DNA from: Armatimonadota bacterium
GTDB taxonomy: Bacteria; Armatimonadota; HRBIN16
DNA length: 64,000 nucleotides
Direction: 5' to 3'
Assembly: GCA_026003195.1 (NCBI GenBank)
Contig: BPGU01000001.1
Span: forward strand, 310,001 to 374,000
Positions 732 through 18,768 of the stretch are shown here, piece by piece. The position numbers were made by a program, and so were the translations under genes. The notes beneath the pieces are model-generated. The model had not been told where the DNA came from, ran no database searches, and worked only from the letters and a program-made list of their open reading frames with translations. Numbering within the stretch: position 1 is the stretch's first letter; every line of letters begins with the position of its first letter.

Positions 732-2684
732 CTACTTCCCCTCTGTGGGGGCGACGACCTCTTGGGGTCTGGTCTCGTACACCTTTTGGAGTGCACGATG
801 CACAGCGTCTGGACGATAGTAAGCCAGAAGGTCTCTGCCCGTGTTGCGCTCGATTCTGTTTCCAACGTCCCATGCGACGTGTGACTTCGCCTGCTCCGGG
901 CAGGTGTAGTAACCATCCCCGCTGGCGATGATCCAGCCAGTATCGTCTCCAGCGTACTCCAGGCGCGCAATCAGCCGCCCGTCCTGCCACGAGAACAGTT
1001 TCACTATCGTGCCGTTCTCACCGTGAGCGATAATGCTTCCATCAGGGGAGAGCGCGCAATGGGAGCAAAAATCCCCCGGGGTCCGTCTGTGCTCCCTCTG
1101 ACCGTCAGAGACACGATAGATATCTATCTGTCCACACGCGACAACGTACAGGCGTGAATTATCCGGGGAGAAACCCAGTGTCTGCGCGAGCACAGACGAA
1201 CGCAGTTCGAAAACAGGCTGTATGTGGTGGTCGGAAAGTTTCCACACCGCTATTCCCTCTGACCTTTGCGTCGCCAGCAGGGTACCATCGGAAGAGAGCG
1301 CTGCAATCTGCAATTCGCCGTAGTTGTTGACCCGCGCTATCTCTGTGCCCTGTATATCGTGCAACACCACCTCGCCATCTGCGCTGGCGGAAATAAAGCG
1401 CTGGTCCTCCCCTGTAAAAGCCACATACTGCACGCGCCCGACGTACGGTGCAAGTCGCAGAGGAGCCTGACGTTTCTTGTTCCGGTCCCACCTCAGCACC
1501 TTTCCGTCCGCAGTGCCAGCGAGCAGAGACTCCCCGTCGGGTGAGGTTGCCAGAGCGGTTACAGGCGCGCGCCCCGTGCGGATGACTGCTTCTTTCTCGG
1601 TGCTTGTCGTTTGCCAGATGTGAATGTTCCCCTCCTCATCGCCCACAAACAGATACTTGCCATCGGGCGTGAAGGTCATGCTGTGTACCGGCGAACGAAC
1701 CTTCTCGATCACTCCTTGCAACCTGCTCTCGCCCAGATTCCACAGGCAAATATACTCCTGCTCCTGGGCTATCTGTATCTGTTTGCCGTCCTCCGAAAAG
1801 CCGACGGACTGCACTCGTCCTTTCACCCCAAAACGCCACTCGACGCGCTCCTTCTCTTCTCCGCGGGATGTCTCCCACAGCACCGAATCGCCGTCCTCTG
1901 TGCTGGAGAGCAGGAGGTCTCCCGCTGGTGAAAACGCGAGGGCAACAACAGGCTTCTGCAGGCGGGGCGACCTCCACAACAAGCGTCCTGTTTGCACCTT
2001 CCATACCCTGAGGCTGGCGTCGTCGCCCGCCGTCGCAAGCAGTTTGCCGTCTGCGGTCATCGCCAGCGCGGTGACCTTTCCCCGGTGTGCACGCACCCTG
2101 CACAGCAGTTCACCCTTTTCCCTGCTCCACACATAAGCGCCGCCGCCTTCCGTGCCTGTCACCACGAGACCCCCGTGATCGCTGAAAACCACCGTCGTCA
2201 CAGGGCTGGAGTGCTCTCTCCAAACGGCGAGCAATCTTCCGGTTCGGGTATCCCACACCGCAACCCGTTTATCGTCGCCGCCGAAAGTCGCTATCATGTT
2301 TTTGCCGGGAGAAAAAGCATAATGCACAAAGGGGTAGCCTTCTCGCAGGATGTGGGCGGCGAGGCGAAAATAGGCATGCCGGAACGAGGTGCTATACTCT
2401 TTCCCTCCGCGGTCGGCTGACACGGTAAGTGTTGCTCCGTGCTCACCACCCTGTGCAATCTCCTGATAGCCCCTGCACAGTACCGCCAGCCATCTGCCAT
2501 CAGGTGAGATGGTGATCCGCGCAGTGGACATCAGGTTGCTCGTTGCCAGAGTGGGCAGAGGCGACTGCGGTGAGGCAACGGTCTGCCTGGATAGAGGGCT
2601 CAGTGAGGGTATGCGTTTGGTCACCTGAATACCTGCCAGCGCAACGATGAGGAGAAGGAGAAGTATCCAGAGAATGCGCCGCAT
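732..2684 (-). CDS. Membrane-anchored WD40 repeat protein
   Basis: A 650-residue protein with an N-terminal hydrophobic segment (MRRILWILLLLLIVALAG) acting as a signal anchor, followed by many WD40-like blades recognisable by repeated LAFSPDGK/LLAT..D..VRVW patterns. WD40 propellers are protein-interaction scaffolds and no enzymatic motif is visible. The C-terminal part ends with GWIIASGDGYYTCP, a motif often seen at the end of bacterial WD40 proteins. I chose the ATG at 2684 rather than an upstream in-frame start at 2756 because GGAGG lies 8 bases before it and it starts directly at the signal anchor. It is divergent from metH with about 75 bp between the two starts. The specific role is unknown. 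Confidence 0.85.
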   Translation of the reverse strand: MRRILWILLLLLIVALAGIQVTKRIPSLSPLSRQTVASPQSPLPTLATSNLMSTARITISPDGRWLAVLCRGYQEIAQGGEHGATLTVSADRGGKEYSTSFRHAYFRLAAHILREGYPFVHYAFSPGKNMIATFGGDDKRVAVWDTRTGRLLAVWREHSSPVTTVVFSDHGGLVVTGTEGGGAYVWSREKGELLCRVRAHRGKVTALAMTADGKLLATAGDDASLRVWKVQTGRLLWRSPRLQKPVVALAFSPAGDLLLSSTEDGDSVLWETSRGEEKERVEWRFGVKGRVQSVGFSEDGKQIQIAQEQEYICLWNLGESRLQGVIEKVRSPVHSMTFTPDGKYLFVGDEEGNIHIWQTTSTEKEAVIRTGRAPVTALATSPDGESLLAGTADGKVLRWDRNKKRQAPLRLAPYVGRVQYVAFTGEDQRFISASADGEVVLHDIQGTEIARVNNYGELQIAALSSDGTLLATQRSEGIAVWKLSDHHIQPVFELRSSVLAQTLGFSPDNSRLYVVACGQIDIYRVSDGQREHRRTPGDFCSHCALSPDGSIIAHGENGTIVKLFSWQDGRLIARLEYAGDDTGWIIASGDGYYTCPEQAKSHVAWDVGNRIERNTGRDLLAYYRPDAVHRALQKVYETRPQEVVAPTEGK

Positions 2685-2759
2685 CGCCGTGCCTCCAGAC
2701 GATAAAGCAGGATGGTGTTGCAGGAACATTTTAGCAGCGAACGCAGAGGAGGTCAACCG

Positions 2760-5700
2760 ATGTTCAGTTCGGGTATACTACAATCAGCCATGAATGACGT
2801 TCTGCAGGTAGCCCAATCACGAGTGCTCTTTTTCGACGGGGCGATGGGCACGCAAATTCAGTCCCTGCATCTCAGCGCAGACGATTTTGAGGGACTGGAA
2901 GGGTGTAACGAAGTGCTCAACGCCACGCGCCCGCATCTGATCGCCCAGATTCATGCACGTTATCTGGAAGCTGGGGCGGATATTGTAGAGACCAACACCT
3001 TCGGCGCGAACGCCATGAATCTGGGCGAATATGGCATCGCACACCGGGTATACGAGCTGAACTTTCAGGGAGCGCGCATTGCACGAGAGGTTGCCTCATC
3101 TTGGAGCACAGCCGACCGCCCGCGCTTCGTCGCGGGTTCTATCGGTCCTGGTACCAAACTGCCCACCCTGGAGCACATTACCTTTGAGGAGCTGGAAGCC
3201 ACCTACACCGAACAGGCGCGCGGGCTGCTGGACGGCGGGGCTGACCTCCTGCTGATAGAGACTGTGCAGGACCTGCTGCAGGCAAAAGCGGCCATCAACG
3301 GCTGTCGCAACGCTATGCGTGCCACAGGTCGTACTGTGCCTCTTTTCGTGCAAGTGACCATGGAGACGACGGGTACGATGCTGCTAGGCACTGAAATCGG
3401 CGCGGCGTTGACCACCCTGCTGGCTTTTCCCGACGTAGCCGTCATCGGGATGAATTGTGCTACTGGACCCGAGCTGATGGTGGAACACGTGCGATACCTG
3501 CATCACCAGTCGCCACGCCTTATCAGTATCCAGCCCAATGCAGGTCTGCCCGAGCTGCGCGACGGCAAGACCTTTTATCCGCTCACCCCCGACGAGCTGG
3601 CACAGTACCACCTGCAGTTTGTGGAGGAGTTCGGCGCGAACTTCGTGGGAGGATGTTGCGGCACCACCCCCGAGCATATTCGCAGGGTCGTAGAAACCAT
3701 CGGATTCCGAGAACCCGCCCGGCGCAGCCCAGAGGTGATTCCTGCCTGCTCGAGCCTGTACCAGGCTGTGCCTTACGAGCAAGAGAACTCGTTCCTGATA
3801 GTGGGCGAGCGACTGAACGCTAATGGCTCCAAGCAGTTCCGCGACCTGCTGCTGAACGAGAACTACGATGACATGATCCAGATGGCGCGCGAGCAGACCG
3901 CCGAGGGCGCGAATGTGTTGGACGTGTGCGTGGACTACGTGGGGCGCGATGGCGTGCGTGATATGACCGAAGTGATTCGTCGCCTTGCCACGCAGAGCAC
4001 GCTGCCGCTGATGATAGACTCGACGGAGCCTCCCGTCATCGAAGCCGCGCTCCAGAGGTTGGGCGGGAAGTGCATCGTCAACTCGGTGAACTTTGAAGAC
4101 GGCGGCAAGCGGCTGCATCAGGTGCTGCCGATGTGTCGCAGGTACGGCGCGGCTGTGGTGGCTCTGGCGATTGATGAAGAGGGGCAGGCTCGCACCACCG
4201 AGTGGAAGCTGCGCGTGGCGCGGAGGCTGGTGAAGGTCATCACCGAGGAGTACGGTATCCCCCCGGAAGACATCTTTTTTGACGCGCTCACCTTCCCGCT
4301 CGGCTCAGGGTCGGAAGAGCTGCGGCGGGACGGCATCGCCACCATCGAAGCCATACGACAGTTCAAGCAGGAGTTTCCGCGGTGCCACACCATTCTGGGG
4401 GTGAGCAATGTCTCCTTCGGTTTGAAACCCGCCGCGCGGCATGTGCTGAACTCGGTCTTCCTGCACTACTGTCTGGAGGCAGGGCTGGACGCAGCGATTG
4501 TTCATCCCTCGCGCATTCTGCCCCTGCATCGCATCCCTGAGCAACAGCGCGAGGTTGCCCGACAGCTGATTTTCGACGAGCGGCGCGAGGGCTATGACCC
4601 GCTGGTGGAGTTCATGCGGTTGTTCGAGAAGGCGGGGGCTACCGCCAAACGCGAGGATGAGTGGCAGTCGTTGCCTGTGGAAGAACGCCTGAAACGCGCC
4701 ATTATCGAGGGCAGGCGCAACGGGCTGGAACAGTCGCTGGATGAGGCACTGAAAAGCCATCGCCCGCTGGACATCATCAATAACATCCTGCTGGAAGGGA
4801 TGAAGGTGGTGGGTGACCTGTTCGGCAAGGGCGAGATGCAGCTGCCCTTTGTGCTGCAGTCGGCGGAGGTGATGAAAGCGGCGGTGAACTACCTGACTCC
4901 CTTCATGGAACGCACGGAAGATGTGCAGAAGGGCACCATCGTGCTGGCGACGGTAGCGGGGGACGTGCACGACATCGGCAAGAATCTGGTAGACATCATC
5001 CTCTCCAACAACGGTTATCGGGTCGTCAATCTGGGCATTAAGGTGCCCATTGACCGCATTCTGGAGGCGGCGGACCAGTACCAGGTAGACGCTATCGGCA
5101 TGAGCGGGCTGCTGGTGAAATCCACCATCGTCATGCGCGAGAACCTGGAGGAGATGAACCGCCGAGGCAAGTGGCACTACCCTGTGCTGCTGGGTGGGGC
5201 TGCACTGACCCGCCGCTATGTGGAGGAAGACCTGCGTCGTATCTACAAAGGGCGCGTGTTTTACGGACAGGACGCCTTCGAGGGGCTGGTGATTATGGAG
5301 CACCTGTGCAACCCGGACAAGCCTCTGGAAGGTGCTGAACCCGTCACCGTTGCCCCTCGCCCGAAGCTTCCGGACCCCTCAGAGGTGGCTCGGGAAGAGC
5401 CTGCGGTTGTCGCGGCAACGCATAGCGGGGTGCGTACGGACGTTCCCATTCCTGAGCCGCCTTTCATCGGCACGCGCGTCGTGGAGGACATTCCGCTGGA
5501 GGAGATATATCCCTACATCAATCAGGTGGCGCTGTTCCGCGGGCAGTGGCAGTTTCGTCGGGGTAAGATGAGCAACGAGGAGTTCAACTGCTTCCTCGAG
5601 GAGCATGTGCGCCCCATTTTCGAGCGGTGGAAGCAGCGCGCGAAGGAAGAGGGGTTACTCCAGCCGAAGGTGGTGTACGGCTACTTCTGGGCGAACTCCG

Positions 5701-9914: not shown

Positions 9915-9921
9915 CGTGGGA

Positions 9922-11805
9922 ATGCGAAAGCGAACGACCATCATCGAAGTCGCAGAGCGGGCTGGAGTGTCCGTAGGTACGGTTTCCAACATACTACGGG
10001 GTGCCACCCACCTGCACCACCCCGATACGGTACGGAAAGTGACGCAAGCCATGCAAGAGCTGAACTACCGTCCGAGTCGGGTGGCGCGGAGCCTGGTAAC
10101 ACGCCGCACGCACACGATTGGGCTGGTGGTAGAGCCTCAGCACGGTCGCTTGACGACGAACCCCTATCTGGTTGGCGTGCTGGATGGCGCACTGGAGTGC
10201 ATGACGGAGCATGGCTACCAGATAAAGATTATCACCCTGGTACGGATTGACCGCGATTACATGCTACACCAGGTGCAGGATCACTCGACGGACGGCATTC
10301 TGCTGGTCGCTCCGCGCTCTGACAGCCCCTTGATTCACTGGGTGGTGGAGCAGGGGATACCTGCTGTCGTCGCGGGCGGCTGGTTGCCTGATCTGCCGGT
10401 CTCCTGCGTGGAGGTGGACAACGAAGGGGGCGTCTACGAGGGTGTGCGCTACCTGATGGAGCAGGGACACCAGCGCATCGGCATCGTCGCGGGTCCCTTA
10501 CACCAGACCAGCGCCGTGCAGCGTGAGCAGGGGTATCTGCGTGCGCTGCAAGAAGCAGGGATCCCCTTCGAACCGCGCTGGTTATATCGCGGCGATTACA
10601 CTGCTGAGTCAGGCAGGTTGGGTGTGCTGACCCTTCTGCGCAACGACCCCGATCTAACGGCTGTTGTATGTGGGAACGATGTAGTGGCGATCGGGGCGTT
10701 GCAGGCGTTGCAGGCTCAGGGAATCCGTGTGCCGGACCAGGTGAGCTTACTGGGTTTCGATGACCTTCCGGAAGGCACACTGGTTGCTCCGCGCCTGACG
10801 ACGATTCATCATCCGCGCCATGAAATCGGGTACCTGGCAGCACAGGTGCTTCTAGAGCGGCTGAACAAGCCTGATGCTCCTGTGGTGCGCAAAACAGTGC
10901 CGACGCGCCTCGTCATCCGTGAGAGCGTGGCACCACCCATACAGAAAAACACAGAGTTCGTCAGGAGGGAAAAGACCATGAAACGCAACGGATTCACACT
11001 GATCGAGTTGCTCGTCGTTATCGCGATTATTGCGATACTGGCGGCAATTTTGTTCCCGGTGTTTGCTCAGGCTCGGGAGAAGGCACGGCAGTCTTCCTGT
11101 CTGAGCAACACGAAGAACCTTGCCCTGGCAAACCTGATGTACGCTCAGGATTACGATGAGACCTTCTGTGCGCAGGGCGAGCCAACCTCCAACAACGGCT
11201 GGGGCTGGCAGATGACCTGGATTGTGCATACCCAGCCTTACATGAAGAACTACGATATCATCCGCTGCCCAAGCGATCCGCATCAGGTTCCCGACTGGTC
11301 GGGACCGAAGTACAGCTACGTGGCAAACGGTGTTATCGCGGGGAACTGCGGCGGCAGCTGGTACTGGAAGTTCATCGGCGTGATTAACGCCTCTCGCTCG
11401 TGGTTTGAGATGACTCCGCGCGCAGTGGCAGGGGTGGCTATGCCTGCAGAAACCATCCTGCTGGCGGAGCGTCACGAGATGCCACCCAGCTCGTGGATGC
11501 AGCCGATGCACGGCGCCTTCTCGCCCTGGGCGACGGTGCTGATAGGTCCAGACGCAGTGGATGCTGGCAACTCGCTGCCCGGTCAGCGCACCTCTGGCGG
11601 CGATGGCACGTGGGCACCTCCTGTGCCCAACTCCGATGGCTATATTGCCACCACGCACTCTGGCAAGAGCAACTTTGCCTTCGCCGACGGCCACGCCAAG
11701 GCGTTGAAGCCGAGCAGCACGGTGAACGCCGACCCGAATACCTACAGCAACACGGGCTGTCACACCGGTTTCTTCTACATGTGGGACGCTACCCGCACGC
11801 AGTAA
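9922..11805 (+). CDS. LacI-family transcriptional regulator, reading frame continuous with a prepilin-like protein
   Basis: Residues 1-60 form the LacI helix-turn-helix ([20 protein letters not shown]) and hinge helix ([13 protein letters not shown]); residues about 60-343 are the periplasmic-binding-protein-like sensor fold with [26 protein letters not shown] and [10 protein letters not shown]. Such repressors bind a sugar or related ligand and control nearby genes. There is no stop where LacI proteins normally end (after [10 protein letters not shown]); the frame runs straight on through position 10977 into the prepilin-like protein, giving 627 codons. The regulator may be translated as a fusion, or the second part may start independently at 10978, which has its own strong ribosome site. 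The start at 9922 has AAGG 7 bases upstream; a GTG at 9916 is the alternative. Confidence 0.88.
10978..11805 (+). CDS. Prepilin-like exported protein with H-x9-DG domain (DUF1559-like)
   Basis: A 275-residue product if started at the ATG at 10978, which has AGGAGGG 8 bases upstream. It begins [20 protein letters not shown], a type IV prepilin/type II pseudopilin signal: a basic leader ending in Gly, cleavage before Phe, Glu at +5 and a hydrophobic helix. Then come [13 protein letters not shown] and the DYDETF block, and near the C-terminus [15 protein letters not shown], the H-x9-DG motif. Such proteins are processed by prepilin peptidase and exposed at the cell surface; their function is largely unknown. 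They are numerous in Planctomycetes and Armatimonadota. A paralogue is encoded at 60904-61776. The gene lies in frame inside the 3' part of the LacI reading frame. Confidence 0.9.
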
Positions 11806-12115: not shown

Positions 12116-12124
12116 GTAAAGTAA

Positions 12125-12153
12125 AGGGGCAGGGTAACTGCCCCTCTTGTTTT
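12125..12153 (+). terminator. Rho-independent terminator of the LacI/prepilin/lipoprotein operon
   Basis: Stem AGGGGCAG (12125-12132) pairs with CTGCCCCT (12138-12145) around GGTAA and is followed by CTTGTTTT. Confidence 0.85.
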
Positions 12154-12203: not shown

Positions 12204-13175
12204 TCACAACTCTATGGGCAGAGCCATCTGCTCCCACCGTGCGGATTGTGCGAGGGATGATAGCTGTTCGCACAAAAGCCTTTCTGTATCTACAGGGAAA
12301 GCGTAGGCTCCCTGCTTGAGCAGGAATGCGTTATCTTCCGGAGCGTTCTCGCCAGTGTACACGAACAGAGGCGTCCAGCCGCTTCGGATGTTCTCGATAG
12401 CACCTGCCCAGGTGCCACCTCTTTCCTGTTCGCAGGCGATTACCAGAGCAAACTGCGCCAGGGCGTAGATTATCTTATTGCGCCCCATAGCATTGCCCGC
12501 CGTGAAACCGCTTTGGGGGTGGTATGGCGAAATGAGGCACAATTTGTCTGCAAGCAGGTAATCGCGCAGAGTGTAGGAGGTAGCTTTCCGTGCGAGGTCC
12601 GCCGCCAGTACCCCTACGCATGTGCCCCCTTCTTCCAGCGCTCCCAACATAGCGGCTCTATCTACACCCTTTGCGCCGCCCGAGATAACTGTGCACGCTT
12701 CGTGAGCACAACGGTTGGCCACATACCGCGCCACTTCCAGCAGGCTCTCGCTTGCATGACGTGAGCCGACGATAGCCAGCCCTCCCTGTTGGAGCAGCGC
12801 AGGGTTGCCGAAACCGTACAGTAACACGGGAGCTTGTTTGCGCAGCTTCTCGTGCAGCACCGCAGGATAATGCCTGTCCTCCCACGAGGCTACCCACATC
12901 CCTGCATTGCTCCATTTTTCCATCCACAACGCCACCTGCGCACCGCGATCGAGCAAGGATTTCAACCGCTCTGCAGAGATGCCGTGCTGCATCTCCCCTT
13001 GGAGCAAAAGCAGGTAAGTATCGGGTGATAGCAACGTCTCTACTGGATAATCTTTCTCGCCCAGCCAGCTGAGAAGTGCGACATACTCTGATTGTGACAG
13101 GGGCTGTACCGGCTCGCTACCCGTGTGTGCACAGAGCAATAAGGCTACCTGTGTGTTGGGGGAAAGAGCGTACAT
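12204..13175 (-). CDS. DprA/Smf-like protein paired with RecQ-PRTase
   Basis: A 323-residue protein whose central part has the Rossmann-like DprA fold: LAIVGSRHAS (about 133), VISGGAKGVDRAAM (about 163) and GFTAGNAMGRNKIIYALA (about 222). DprA binds single-stranded DNA and loads RecA during natural transformation, but DprA-like proteins are also found in conflict-system operons where they may sense a nucleotide or DNA ligand. The N-terminal region (about 1-105) is unlike the usual SAM domain and no C-terminal winged helix is evident. It starts 6 bp after the RecQ-PRTase stop on the same strand, so the two are almost certainly co-transcribed and translationally coupled. This argues for a dedicated partner rather than the housekeeping DprA. 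Confidence 0.85.
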   Translation of the reverse strand: MYALSPNTQVALLLCAHTGSEPVQPLSQSEYVALLSWLGEKDYPVETLLSPDTYLLLLQGEMQHGISAERLKSLLDRGAQVALWMEKWSNAGMWVASWEDRHYPAVLHEKLRKQAPVLLYGFGNPALLQQGGLAIVGSRHASESLLEVARYVANRCAHEACTVISGGAKGVDRAAMLGALEEGGTCVGVLAADLARKATSYTLRDYLLADKLCLISPYHPQSGFTAGNAMGRNKIIYALAQFALVIACEQERGGTWAGAIENIRSGWTPLFVYTGENAPEDNAFLLKQGAYAFPVDTERLLCEQLSSLAQSARWEQMALPIEL

Positions 13176-13181
13176 GTTCCA

Positions 13182-15284
13182 TTACCCTCCGCGTAGAACC
13201 TGCTTCGCCAGCGCAACAGGAAACACTGCACCACTTCCTGCCTGACGTAGTAGCGCTGCAATCACGGTCATTGTCCACCCTGAGTCTACCACATCGTCCA
13301 CCAGAAAAACAGGCTTGGACATACCCTGCCACGGCTGTACCTCGAACGCGCCGTCCAGATTGCGCACCTGATGGAAGCTGTTCTGCATCTCCTTTTGGGG
13401 ACGGGTTTCACGCACTTTGCGCACACAGGGCACAAAGGGTAGCCCTAACCTCTGGGCAAAGCGCAGGGCAAAGTCAGCTACCAGGCGGGGATGTCTGAGA
13501 GAGGGGACACAGGTCACCCACTGTGGAGCAGGTTGAGGCTGCCACCGTGTGACCATCTCCACCATCCCCTCGACCAGTTCGTCGCTGTAGAAGCCGTCTG
13601 TATATTTGCCTTGCTTGACCAGTATGCCCCATCCAGCGTCTCCCCACAGGCACAGGGCGCGTCCTTGCTCGGCGCGCAAGTTCTCTGGGATTTTACTTTG
13701 TCCACCTGAGATGGGCAGTCCCTCTTTTGCTGGCCACATTTTGCGAGGTTCTATGGGTATCTCAGAGCGTCGCAGGAACCGCACTGCCTCTACCACCATT
13801 TCGTGCTCTACGGAAGGCGATATGATTGGTTTACCGGTGCAGCAGGCGCATTTGCCACAGGGCTGGGCATGGGGGTCGTCCAGAGCCTGCTGCAGGAAGA
13901 GCATGAGACACTGCGTGCTGCGCATGTATTGCTGCATCTGCTCCTGTTCGGCACGACGCAGGGTGGTAAGCCTCTGGACGCGCTCCATGTCGGGCTGGTA
14001 CGGTACTGGGGCGAGCACGTATTTATTGCCCATCTGCAGAATGGGCGATGGAGTCTCAGAGGACAGCAGCCGCAGCACTTTGTCTATCTGCTGGCGTGAC
14101 AGGTTAACGTAGCGTTCCATCTCCGCGACGCTCAAGCCGTTGTCATGTTGCTGCAGGGCGTGCAGGATAGCATTCGTATGTGCTTGTGGTGGAAACGCCG
14201 TGCGGATGAAGTAATCCACGATCTCATCGTCCTCTTCTCCGCCCAGCAACACAATCATCGCATTGTCTAACGACCTGCCAGCTCTGCCAATTTGCTGGTA
14301 GTAGTGTACGACTGAGCCGGGGCGTTGAAAATGTACGACAAAACCGAGGTCAGGCTTATCAAATCCCATGCCCAGCGCCACGGTTGCCACCAGTGCTTTC
14401 ACATCGTTGCGCAATAACTTCTGCTCTAAATCTTCGCGCTCGGTGTTGTCTAAATCGGCGTGGTAGGCGCATACCTGCCATCCTTTCATCTGTAACCAGT
14501 CAGCGACACGTTCCGAGTCGGCAACGGTCAGAGTGTAGATAATGCCGCTACCGGGCAATTCGTGCATGTGGTTGGCGAGCCATGCCATACGTTCCGCCTG
14601 CGAGGGCAAGATGATGTTCTGCAGCCGCAGGCTACGCCGTGCTAAATTGCCTCTGTGGATGCTTAAATCTTCTCCCAGCTGTTGCCGAATGTCTTCCACC
14701 ACCCTGTTGTTGGCGGTCGCAGTGGTAGCCAGCACAGGCACATTGCGCGGTAACAGGCGCAACACCCTGACAATGCGTCGATAGTCTGGACGAAAATCGT
14801 GTCCCCAATCTGAAATGCAGTGCGCTTCGTCAACGATGAGCATCAAGATACGCGAAGCAACACGCTGCAGAATATTTCCGTAAAAATCAGCGTTGGCAAG
14901 ACGCTCTGGACTAATGAGTAGCAGATCCACCTCATCTGCAAGCAGACGCTCCTGAATGTCAAGCCATTGTTTGGTATTGGCGGAGTGGATAGTTACAGCG
15001 CGGACGCCCATGCGTGTCGCCATCTCGATCTGGTTGCGCATGAGCGAAAGCAAGGGGGAAATCAACAGCGATAGACCTTTGTTGCTGTTTTGCTCCCGGA
15101 GCAGCTTCGCCGCGATGAAATACACAATGCTTTTGCCCCAGCCTGTTCGCTGCACCAGAAGCAACCGTTTGCGGTGTGCTACCAGAGCCCCTATCGCTTC
15201 CCATTGACCATCGCGAAAAGCGGCTGACGAGTCTTGTAGTCCCGCCCGCAACAGAGCCAGCGCACGTGCGTGTAATGTACTCAA
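13182..15284 (-). CDS. RecQ-type DNA helicase fused to a phosphoribosyltransferase domain
   Basis: A 700-residue protein. Residues 1-340 are a superfamily 2 RecQ helicase core: Walker A RTGWGKS (46-52), DEAH box followed by CISDWGHDFRPDYRR (152-170), and motif VI QQIGRAGR (330-337). A RecQ-type zinc site follows with Cys459, Cys476, Cys479 and Cys481/482. The HRDC domain is absent; instead residues about 540-700 form a ComF-like phosphoribosyltransferase with the PRPP-binding motif VFLVDDVVDSGWTM (659-672). The start appears to be TTG at 15284, preceded by AAGGTGG. RecQ unwinds 3'-tailed DNA; the fused PRTase suggests nucleotide or base chemistry coupled to unwinding. It is the first gene of a two-gene unit with the DprA-like protein. 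Confidence 0.93.
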   Translation of the reverse strand: MSTLHARALALLRAGLQDSSAAFRDGQWEAIGALVAHRKRLLLVQRTGWGKSIVYFIAAKLLREQNSNKGLSLLISPLLSLMRNQIEMATRMGVRAVTIHSANTKQWLDIQERLLADEVDLLLISPERLANADFYGNILQRVASRILMLIVDEAHCISDWGHDFRPDYRRIVRVLRLLPRNVPVLATTATANNRVVEDIRQQLGEDLSIHRGNLARRSLRLQNIILPSQAERMAWLANHMHELPGSGIIYTLTVADSERVADWLQMKGWQVCAYHADLDNTEREDLEQKLLRNDVKALVATVALGMGFDKPDLGFVVHFQRPGSVVHYYQQIGRAGRSLDNAMIVLLGGEEDDEIVDYFIRTAFPPQAHTNAILHALQQHDNGLSVAEMERYVNLSRQQIDKVLRLLSSETPSPILQMGNKYVLAPVPYQPDMERVQRLTTLRRAEQEQMQQYMRSTQCLMLFLQQALDDPHAQPCGKCACCTGKPIISPSVEHEMVVEAVRFLRRSEIPIEPRKMWPAKEGLPISGGQSKIPENLRAEQGRALCLWGDAGWGILVKQGKYTDGFYSDELVEGMVEMVTRWQPQPAPQWVTCVPSLRHPRLVADFALRFAQRLGLPFVPCVRKVRETRPQKEMQNSFHQVRNLDGAFEVQPWQGMSKPVFLVDDVVDSGWTMTVIAALLRQAGSGAVFPVALAKQVLRGG

Positions 15285-15344: not shown

Positions 15345-17636
15345 CTACGACGCCATCGCCTGCGCGGACCCAGCCTCTTCGCGGTAGTCGCATTCTTTGT
15401 TGGAGCAGACAACGGTCACCTGCTTGCGTCCGTTTTGCTTCTCCACCAGCAGCGAACCGCACTTCGGACAGGTTCTGCCTACCGGCTTGTCCCACAGCGT
15501 GAAGTCGCATTCAGGATAGCGGTTGCAGCCGTAAAACACTTTGCCCCGCATCTTGCCCTTGCGCACTTTGCGCTCCACAATCTGCCCTTGTTTGCACGCG
15601 GGGCAGGTTACGCCAAGCGATTTCTCCAGTGGCTTGCGCGCTTTGCACTGCTCGTTGGTGCAAGCCAGATACTCGCCGTACCTGCCCCAGCGGATGACCA
15701 TTGGCGAGCCGCACTTCTCGCACACCTCATCCGAGGGCTGGTCGGGTGGGGCGGGTTCGCCGCTGCGGGTGACCTTCACGATAGTTTTGCATTCGGGATA
15801 GCGCGAACAGCCCAGGAACTTGCCGTAGCGTCCCTCGCGCAGCAACATCTTCGCGCCGCAGTTGGGGCAGGTGTAGTCGGTCTCCTTCGGCTCGATGCGC
15901 ACGAACTCGCTGCTCTTTTCGGTCTCTTGCAGACGCTTTGCAAATGGCTCGTAGAAGGCACGCAGTACCTCTGTCCACTCCTGCTTACCTTCCTCGATAT
16001 CATCCAGCTGTTGCTCCACACCGGCGGTGAACTGCACGTCCAGGATGTCCGGGAAGTGCTTCACCAGATAGTCGGTGATGGCGATGCCCAGCGGCGTGGG
16101 GTAAAATCGCTTGTCCCTCAGTTCCACGTAACCCCTCTCCACAATGGTGGAAAGGATGGTGGCGTAGGTGCTGGGTCTGCCGATGCCCTTCTCTTCTAGC
16201 GCCTTCACCAGCGTGGCTTCGGTGTAGCGGGGCGGCGGCTCGGTGAAGTGCTGTTCGGGCAGGAGTGCAATCAGCGTCAGGATTTGCCCTTCCATCATGG
16301 GAGGCAGGGGCGGTCGCTCCTCGTCGCTCAGCTCGCCATTGTCCTTGCCCTCCACGTACACGCGCATGAAGCCGTCAAACTTCACGCTGGAGCCTGTGGC
16401 GCGGAAGGTGTAGCGCCCTGCCTGAATATCCACGGTGACCACATCCAGCACCGCAGACGACATCTGGCTCGCGATGAACCGCTGCCAGATGAGCCGATAC
16501 AGCTCATATTGTTCCTTAGACAGGTACTTTTTCACCGATTCAGGAGTGCGCGTGACGGAAGTAGGGCGGATGGCTTCGTGCGCGTCCTGCGCGCCGCCTC
16601 GCGAGCGGTATTGTGGAGGCTTCTCGGGCACGTAGCGTTCTCCGAACTCCCTGAGGATGTATTCTCGGGCTTGCGCCTGTGCCTCAGCGGCGACGCGGGT
16701 GGAGTCGGTGCGCATGTAGGTAATCAAGCCCACGGAGCCCTGTTCACCCAGCTCCACGCCTTCGTACAGCTGCTGGGCTATCTGCATGGTGCGTTTGGCA
16801 CTGAAGCCCAGCTTGCGCGCCGCCTCCTGCTGCAGGGTGCTGGTAATGAAAGGCGGTGAGGGGTTGCGTTTGCGCTCACTGCGCTTGATCTTCTGTACCA
16901 CGTACTGCGCGCCTTCCAGATCCTGCAGCACGGCGTTCGCTTCCCGCTCGTTGTGCAACTCCAGCTTCTCGCCATCGCGCAGGCGCAGGGTAGCATCGAA
17001 AGCGTTCGCTTCGGTGTCGGGGGTGAGGCGGGCGGTAATCGTCCAGTACTCCTCCGGCACGAAGGCTTCGATCTCGCGCTCGCGCTCCACCACCAGCCGC
17101 ACCGCCACCGACTGCACGCGCCCTGCGCTCAGGGTGTTGCGATTTGCCTTCTTCCATAGCAGCGGACTCAGGCTGTAACCCACGATGCGGTCCAGGATGC
17201 GTCGAGCCTGCTGGGCGTTGACGCGATTCATGTCGATATCACGCGGGTTCTGCAGAGCCTGTTGCACCGCCTGACGGGTTATCTCGTTGAACTCGATACG
17301 GCGGGCATGGTGCAGGTTCAGTGCTTCCTTGAGGTGCCAGGCAATGGCTTCGCCCTCACGGTCGGGGTCGGAGGCAAGGTACACTTCCGATGCCCGCTCG
17401 GCTGCCTCTTTCAGCCGTTTGAGCACGTCCTGCCGATCTTGCAGAGTGATGTAAGTTGGGGTGAATCCGTTCTGCACGTCCACGCCGAAATCCTTCTCTG
17501 GCAAGTCGCGCACATGCCCCATCGAGGCTTCCACCTGATACTGGTCGCCCAGGAAGTTTTTGAGCGTCTTCGTCTTTGCAGGCGATTCGACGATGATTAA
17601 CGCCTTCGCTTTATCCGCTTTCTGCTGTTTACTCAT
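15345..17636 (-). CDS. topA: DNA topoisomerase I
   Basis: Type IA topoisomerase, relaxing negative supercoils by single-strand passage; 763 residues. The TOPRIM domain has Glu17 in [11 protein letters not shown] and the acidic triad in SDPDREGEA (89-97); the catalytic Tyr307 sits in [11 protein letters not shown]. The C-terminal third has four Cys4 zinc ribbons (starting [20 protein letters not shown] and RTCPKCG), one more than the three common in the E. coli-type enzyme. The start overlaps the end of era by 8 bp, so era and topA form an operon. The separation of only 60 bp from the following recQ-PRTase unit leaves room for its own promoter. Confidence 0.97.
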
Positions 17637-18528
17637 AGCCCAGCTCCCTCAGTGCTCGTGGGTCGCGTCGCCAATCGGGGATGACCTTCACCACCAGCTC
17701 CAGATACACCTTGCTGCCCAGAAACAGTTCTAGCTGTTTGCGTGCCTCCTGCCCAATCTGTTTGAGCATACTCCCACCTTTACCAATCACGATAGATTTG
17801 TGGTTCTCCCGCTCCACGATGATCTCCGCACGGATATACTGTACCCCGTTTTCACGCTCTTCCCAATCGGTGACGCGCACAGCGATGCTGTACGGTATCT
17901 CCTCGCGCAGGTGGCTCATCGCCTGCTCGCGCACGATTTCCGCCGCCCAGTCCTGCCGTGACTGGTCGCTGCGGATGTCCACCGGATAGAAGAACGGCGA
18001 TTCGGGCATCGCCAGCAGAATCTCCTCGCGCAGGCGGTACACCGCCTTTGGGTCTTTCAGCGCGGAGAGGGAGATATGCCTCTGCGCGTTCGGCAGCAGT
18101 GCGGCGTACGCCTGCATCGCCTGCTCCGGATACTTTGCCGCGTCCAGCTTGTTGCCCACAATCCACACCGGCGCGTCTACCCCTTGTAATCGGTTTGCCA
18201 GGTCTTCGTCTTCAGGGGTAGGGGGATGGCGCAGGTCCACCACCCACAGCACCAGATTAATATCCTCCAGTGCGGTGTCTATCTGTTCTCTCATAAACTG
18301 TCCCAAGCGGTCTTTAGGCTGGTGCCAGCCGGGCGTGTCCACAAACACCACCTGCCGGTTGCCCTCGGTGTAGATACCTCGCACACCGCGTCGAGTGGTC
18401 TGCGGGCGCGAGGTGATGGGCGCAACCTTCACTCCCAGCATGACGTTCAGCAACGTGGACTTGCCCACGTTCGGCTTGCCCACAATCGCCACGAAACCGC
18501 AATGGGTGGGTATCTGTCCCGTGTTCAT
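17629..18528 (-). CDS. era: GTPase Era
   Basis: A 299-residue ribosome-assembly GTPase that binds 16S rRNA near its 3' end. G-domain motifs are GKPNVGKST (G1), the T in TTRRGV (G2), DTPGWH (G3) and NKLD (G4); the C-terminal KH domain contains [16 protein letters not shown], and the length is normal for Era. The ATG at 18528 is chosen because AAGGAG is 8 bases upstream. The frame is open up to 18645, but that extension is encoded by an intergenic repeat and reads like repeat peptide (NPSPTRRG), not Era. Upstream gene of the era-topA operon. Confidence 0.96.
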
Positions 18529-18544
18529 TCGCGATGCTCCTTGA

Positions 18545-18632
18545 CCTGACCCCCGACCCCCCTTCCCTGAGAGGGAAAGGGGAAGATTCGCGTCCCCTCT
18601 CCTCGTAGGCGAGGGGTTCGGGGCGAGGTTCA
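18545..18632. repeat. Palindrome-rich intergenic repeat upstream of era
   Basis: The stretch contains two near-palindromic parts: CCCCTTCCCT opposite AGGGAAAGGGG (one base bulge), and CCCCTCTCCTCG opposite CGAGGGG. Its translation contains NPSPTRRG and [14 protein letters not shown], typical of interspersed repeats that appear as spurious N-terminal extensions in many bacterial genomes. No second copy is seen in this window, so family membership is an inference. Confidence 0.5.
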
Positions 18633-18768
18633 CCACTCCTGGCACGCAGGTAGTTGTACCAGCAAGTGTGGGATGCTGTCAAGGGAGATTGCGGCGGCGG
18701 TTGTGTGCGAGGCAAAATGAGCCTTGCCTGCCTTGAGCGTAAGTGGTATGATAGGCGTGGTGTCCACG

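Follow-up and report, generated by a model that had tools for sequence, protein, structure and literature searches.

The locus consists of two adjacent genes on the reverse strand of the window (the whole 64,000-nucleotide stretch of DNA that was analysed). The first, psyrT (rqlH; 13182..15284, (-)), begins with a TTG codon and encodes a putative toxin of 700 residues, in which a RecQ-like helicase is followed by a C-terminal phosphoribosyltransferase (PRTase). Six nucleotides separate its stop from the ATG start of the second gene, psyrA (rqlI; 12204..13175, (-)), as the initial annotation had given it. This gene encodes a putative antitoxin of 323 residues, a DprA-like SLOG protein. On the same strand, 60 nt upstream of psyrT, lies topA for DNA topoisomerase I (15345..17636, (-)), which overlaps by 8 nt with the gene of the GTPase Era (17629..18645, (-)), likely the first of the transcription unit. 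A hairpin resembling an intrinsic terminator, with a consensus fit on both strands, is located 3' of psyrA (12123..12147, (-)), and no terminator-like site was found between topA and psyrT. Judged from this arrangement, the pair appears to close an era–topA–psyrT–psyrA operon. In the five genomes of the genus where the start codon of psyrT is readable, including the window (position 15284), it is either TTG or GTG; ATG dominates elsewhere in the family.

Profiles, motifs and a structure model of PsyrT all support the fusion of a RecQ helicase to a ComF-like PRTase that the initial annotation had proposed, with every motif it listed intact. The helicase core spans residues 21-360 (14205..15224, (-)) and contains the Walker A motif TGWGKS (residues 47-52; 15129-15146), the DEAH box (residues 152-155; 14820-14831) and GRAGR (residues 333-337), with Pfam matches to DEAD (4.5e-24) and Helicase_C (2.1e-16). 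It is followed by a zinc-binding and winged-helix-like region (residues 361-495; 13800..14204, (-)) with the cysteines C459, C476, C479 and C482. In two relatives (L071:7996-10053 and L073:9187-11241) these cysteines are absent and the rest of PsyrT is conserved. The remainder, residues 496-700 (13185..13799, (-)), forms the PRTase domain with the PRPP motif VDDVVDSGWT at residues 662-671 (13272-13301), the DD pair of which is invariant in 16 aligned relatives. Taken alone, the Pfam match of this part to Pribosyltran is weak (0.001, 18.8 bits, under the Pfam cut-off); the NCBIfam comF match (2.6e-5), the aligned relatives and the confident model agree in pointing to a PRTase. The AlphaFold model has a pLDDT of 88, with about 490 columns that align with the RecQ catalytic core and a confident C-terminal alpha/beta domain behind them. 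The 50 best fold matches were all taken by RecQ-family helicases, with no separate match for the PRTase part among them, and a sequence search found no solved structure of PsyrT or PsyrA. Compared to canonical RecQ (TIGR01389), PsyrT has the helicase core and the zinc/winged-helix region, but it reaches only 298.5 bits against a cut-off of 640.2, has no HRDC domain matched by Pfam or NCBIfam profiles, and carries the additional PRTase.

PsyrA matches the Pfam family DNA_processg_A (2.8e-36) and differs from canonical DprA in its score of 86.6 bits, far from the equivalog cut-off of 191.15. The best fold match of its model (pLDDT 90.5) is DprA of S. pneumoniae, which aligns along the whole length (282 columns), so that the N-terminal helical domain is present in PsyrA (residues 1-88). 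The protein had initially been described as lacking both the SAM and the winged-helix extras of DprA; this is right for the C-terminal winged helix, which most relatives carry and the window protein does not, and wrong for the N-terminal helical part. A short form is also seen in 7 of 64 relatives. The fold is also similar to that of ShosA (8zva, TM 0.67-0.70).

In the PADLOC library, the best matches of the two proteins are the models of PsyrT (971 bits, residues 3-696 of 700) and PsyrA (357 bits, residues 4-306 of 323). These models (PDLC03928, PDLC03927) stand for PsyrTA of Pseudomonas syringae, and they match both window proteins over nearly their full length; the last quarter of the 398 positions of the PsyrA model has no counterpart in the window protein. 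The P. syringae system was reportedly presented by Sberro et al. in 2013. By sequence, the pair is a clear copy of this two-gene toxin–antitoxin system, alias RqlHI. Present in the literature since 2013-2015 and in the defence collection since 2023, the system is already known, and a comparison with defence collections, as proposed in the initial annotation, does not support novelty of the pair.

Published work bears on how such a pair may function. Russell and Mulvey (2015; PMC4670107) described the RqlH/RqlI operon of extraintestinal pathogenic E. coli, in which rqlH comes first. The PRTase domain of RqlH is needed for genotoxicity, mutation of its PRPP motif abolishes toxicity, and the DprA-like RqlI binds the PRTase-bearing part of RqlH and suppresses its toxicity. 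The window pair shares with this operon the RecQ helicase–PRTase order, a DprA-like partner as immediate downstream neighbour in the same orientation and the same PRPP motif. It differs in its position in the topA operon and in the absence from PsyrA of the C-terminal helix-turn-helix of RqlI, an accessory and non-defining element. An analysis from 2017 (PMC5512222) had already described the fusion of a PRTase with a helicase and its coupling to DprA. ShosTA likewise combines a PRTase toxin with a DprA-like antitoxin: ShosT is reported to disturb purine metabolism, a phage protein to trigger the system, and ShosA to be a DNA-binding protein (PMC12593503). Unlike the PRTase of the window, that of ShosT is not fused to a helicase, and in PADLOC the window PsyrA scores 90 bits with ShosA against 357 with PsyrA. 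We count PMC9122126, beside PMC4670107 and PMC12593503, in favour of the PsyrTA reading.

Using the PRTase part as a query against the GTDB collection, we found relatives in at least 594 stretches and retained the 80 nearest, a sample biased to close relatives. In all 73 loci from these named relatives and two viral contigs whose downstream sequence was long enough for evaluation, a DprA-like partner lies just downstream, which bears out the earlier proposal of a dedicated two-gene module. The distance from the psyrT stop to the psyrA start is between -4 and 24 nt in 60 of 64 relatives, and the helicase precedes the PRTase in 81 of 82 loci, the exception starting near a contig end. Since it is conserved across phyla, the arrangement of helicase–PRTase and DprA-like partner is not due to chance. 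A copy on a haloarchaeal plasmid has no annotated partner. In phage records, only ordinary RecQ-like helicase parts were matched, none of them spanning 80% of PsyrT. The pair is spread through many bacterial phyla and patchy within that of the window; in the gene tree, obtained with a quick method and with long branches flagged, many phyla are intermixed and the window's phylum appears in several separate places.

Relatives of the pair are often located in defence islands. One E. coli plasmid carries the pair inside a type I restriction operon, and on an IMG/VR contig it occurs within about 14 kb of sequence together with CBASS genes, AbiEii, a WYL regulator and HsdM/HsdS. Within the window's phylum, 74 genes neighbouring 12 loci matched 112 PADLOC families at 1e-10, with AbiLi, type I restriction, HEC-01 and ShosA among them, compared to 7 families for 74 control genes located elsewhere in nine genomes of the same set; the family count is a proxy only, because one restriction gene matches many models. 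Relatives of HsdM or HsdR were present at 9 of 80 named loci, 1 of the 12 phylum loci and none of 9 controls. Around the window copy no defence island is apparent: of 37 window genes, those matched by PADLOC models gave generic matches (subtilase, AAA-type IetA, HEAT repeats, helicase), and the genes that were checked belong to metabolism or encode peptidases or glycosidases. The defence-island location about which the initial annotation asked often applies to the relatives, when set against control regions, but not to the window copy in its era–topA operon. For the PsyrTA subfamily, a putative anti-phage role is plausible. In one genome of the window's phylum, a ShosA-like protein (L066:15745-16914; 8.2e-59) is encoded a few kb from a PsyrTA pair, which places two DprA-like antitoxins in one neighbourhood.

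Taken together, we estimate a probability of roughly 0.8 that the window genes are a PsyrTA/RqlHI toxin–antitoxin pair, in which a PRTase toxin is carried on a helicase and held in check by a bound DprA-like antitoxin. The present analysis provides the identity, the architecture, the pairing, the defence-island context of the relatives and, within the genus, repeated losses and a mosaic evolution; all catalytic motifs of PsyrT, including the PRPP motif, are intact. The patchy, scattered distribution in the phylum and the losses in the genus also speak for this reading. PRTase toxicity, its neutralisation and physical binding would carry over from RqlHI, and altered purine metabolism from ShosTA. 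By analogy with these relatives, we infer that the window pair may work as they do and that its use may be defence. The RecQ-type motor of PsyrT would act on DNA and the PRTase domain would be the toxic part, probably consuming PRPP and so disturbing the purine nucleotide pool, or modifying nucleotides at DNA. PsyrA would bind the PRTase part and keep it inactive; a disturbance of the pair, as might come from DNA stress or phage infection, would release the PRTase, with induction of the SOS response and growth arrest. Against this toxin–antitoxin and defence reading stand the location of the window copy in a housekeeping operon and the absence of the RqlI-type helix-turn-helix from its antitoxin. 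In addition, one native-host study detected no protection against phages when PsyrTA was expressed in E. coli NILS69 (PMC12409345), and RqlH occurs without a partner in many Gram-positive bacteria (PMC4670107), so that toxicity in the absence of the partner may not be universal.

The operon setting lends itself to a different view, that of a housekeeping DNA-repair or recombination module in which PsyrT takes the place of the canonical RecQ that the genus lacks and acts together with topoisomerase I, PsyrA serving as a recombination mediator of the DprA type. The apparent co-transcription with era and topA speaks for it, as do the conserved position in the genus, where psyrT is present in 6 of 10 genomes and directly follows topA in all six, with psyrA behind it wherever the contig continues, and the lack of a RecQ above the family cut-off in the window genome. 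However, the four genomes without the pair contain no other RecQ-like match at E <= 1e-30, which indicates that the pair is dispensable and not simply the RecQ of the genus. Three of these genomes have carrying sisters in the topA tree (lacking with carrying: G007–G002, G003–G009 and G006–G008, the last with moderate support). In G003, a 71-nt stretch after topA has its best alignment with the 3' end of psyrA of its sister G009 (score 82, compared to 35 for the best of 100 shuffles), as expected of a deletion scar, and in G007 the site is cleanly empty, the sequence 38 nt past topA having 87% identity to the region behind psyrA in G002. The phylum relatives, moreover, are located elsewhere, often among defence genes. 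We therefore regard the housekeeping module as unlikely. The sister pairs, the scar and the empty site indicate that the pair is old in the genus and was lost about three times, the outermost genome G001, also lacking it, not being polarisable; a recent horizontal gain at the window site is rejected in view of them.

When the window genome is compared with its sister G005, divergence is unequal across neighbouring genes, with dS values of 0.44 for topA, 0.17 for psyrT and 1.19 for psyrA. DNA identity drops from 0.945 to 0.745 at the psyrT/psyrA border, and the PsyrA alleles agree fully over roughly the first 32 residues and differ thereafter. On the small basis of this one genome pair, such a pattern points towards recombination moving toxin and antitoxin alleles separately, and it points to a recombination history of the antitoxin that differs from that of the toxin. 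It is improbable, more so than the housekeeping module, that a PsyrTA pair was domesticated in this genus as part of the era–topA operon and that its antitoxin shed the winged helix in the process; expression of the PRTase toxin would then follow that of topoisomerase I and guard against disturbance of DNA supercoiling or of the topA region.

Slightly less credible again is the second-messenger model of the initial annotation, according to which a nucleotide made or consumed by the PRTase is sensed by the DprA-like Rossmann domain. SLOG domains of other families bind nucleotides, and the fold of PsyrA is weakly similar to the LOG/PpnN nucleotide enzymes. There is no sequence evidence of a signal, however, ShosA is reported as DNA-binding (PMC12593503), and the partner in RqlHI counteracts the toxin by attaching to its PRTase-bearing part (PMC4670107), which favours a directly bound antitoxin instead. 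A competence module handling incoming DNA, which the ComF- and DprA-like domains might evoke, is the least probable reading: separate genes for DprA (269.8 bits), ComEC and a ComF-like protein lie elsewhere in the genome, so the pair is not tied to competence genes, it is patchy in the genus, and PsyrA falls far under the DprA cut-off.

As a PsyrTA pair, the window copy is, apart from its setting in the genus, one more member of a common family. What the genus offers is a pair at a fixed place, with several natural losses, a deletion scar, and toxin and antitoxin genes that appear to have recombined separately, which makes cross-neutralisation tests between sister alleles possible.

Other loci were observed in the same genome. 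A divergent DprA/SLOG-like gene of 302 residues (L010:1246-3211, on G000:C3) lies 118 nt upstream of a type II-like DNA methyltransferase. A RecQ/DpdF-like helicase at L002:1-3411 (G000:C3:516700-520110) extends over two overlapping frames, 1-2028 and 1997-3409, for which a frameshift or an assembly error could be the reason, unless there are two chains. In the window, a single frame at 9916-11805 (+) encodes a LacI-family repressor (about residues 1-340) and, fused to it, an N-methyl prepilin/DUF1559 protein. The genome has 98 matching places, where many LacI genes have a prepilin of this kind right behind them and at least two further fusions are apparent, at C1:142196-143797 and C3:341729-343135.
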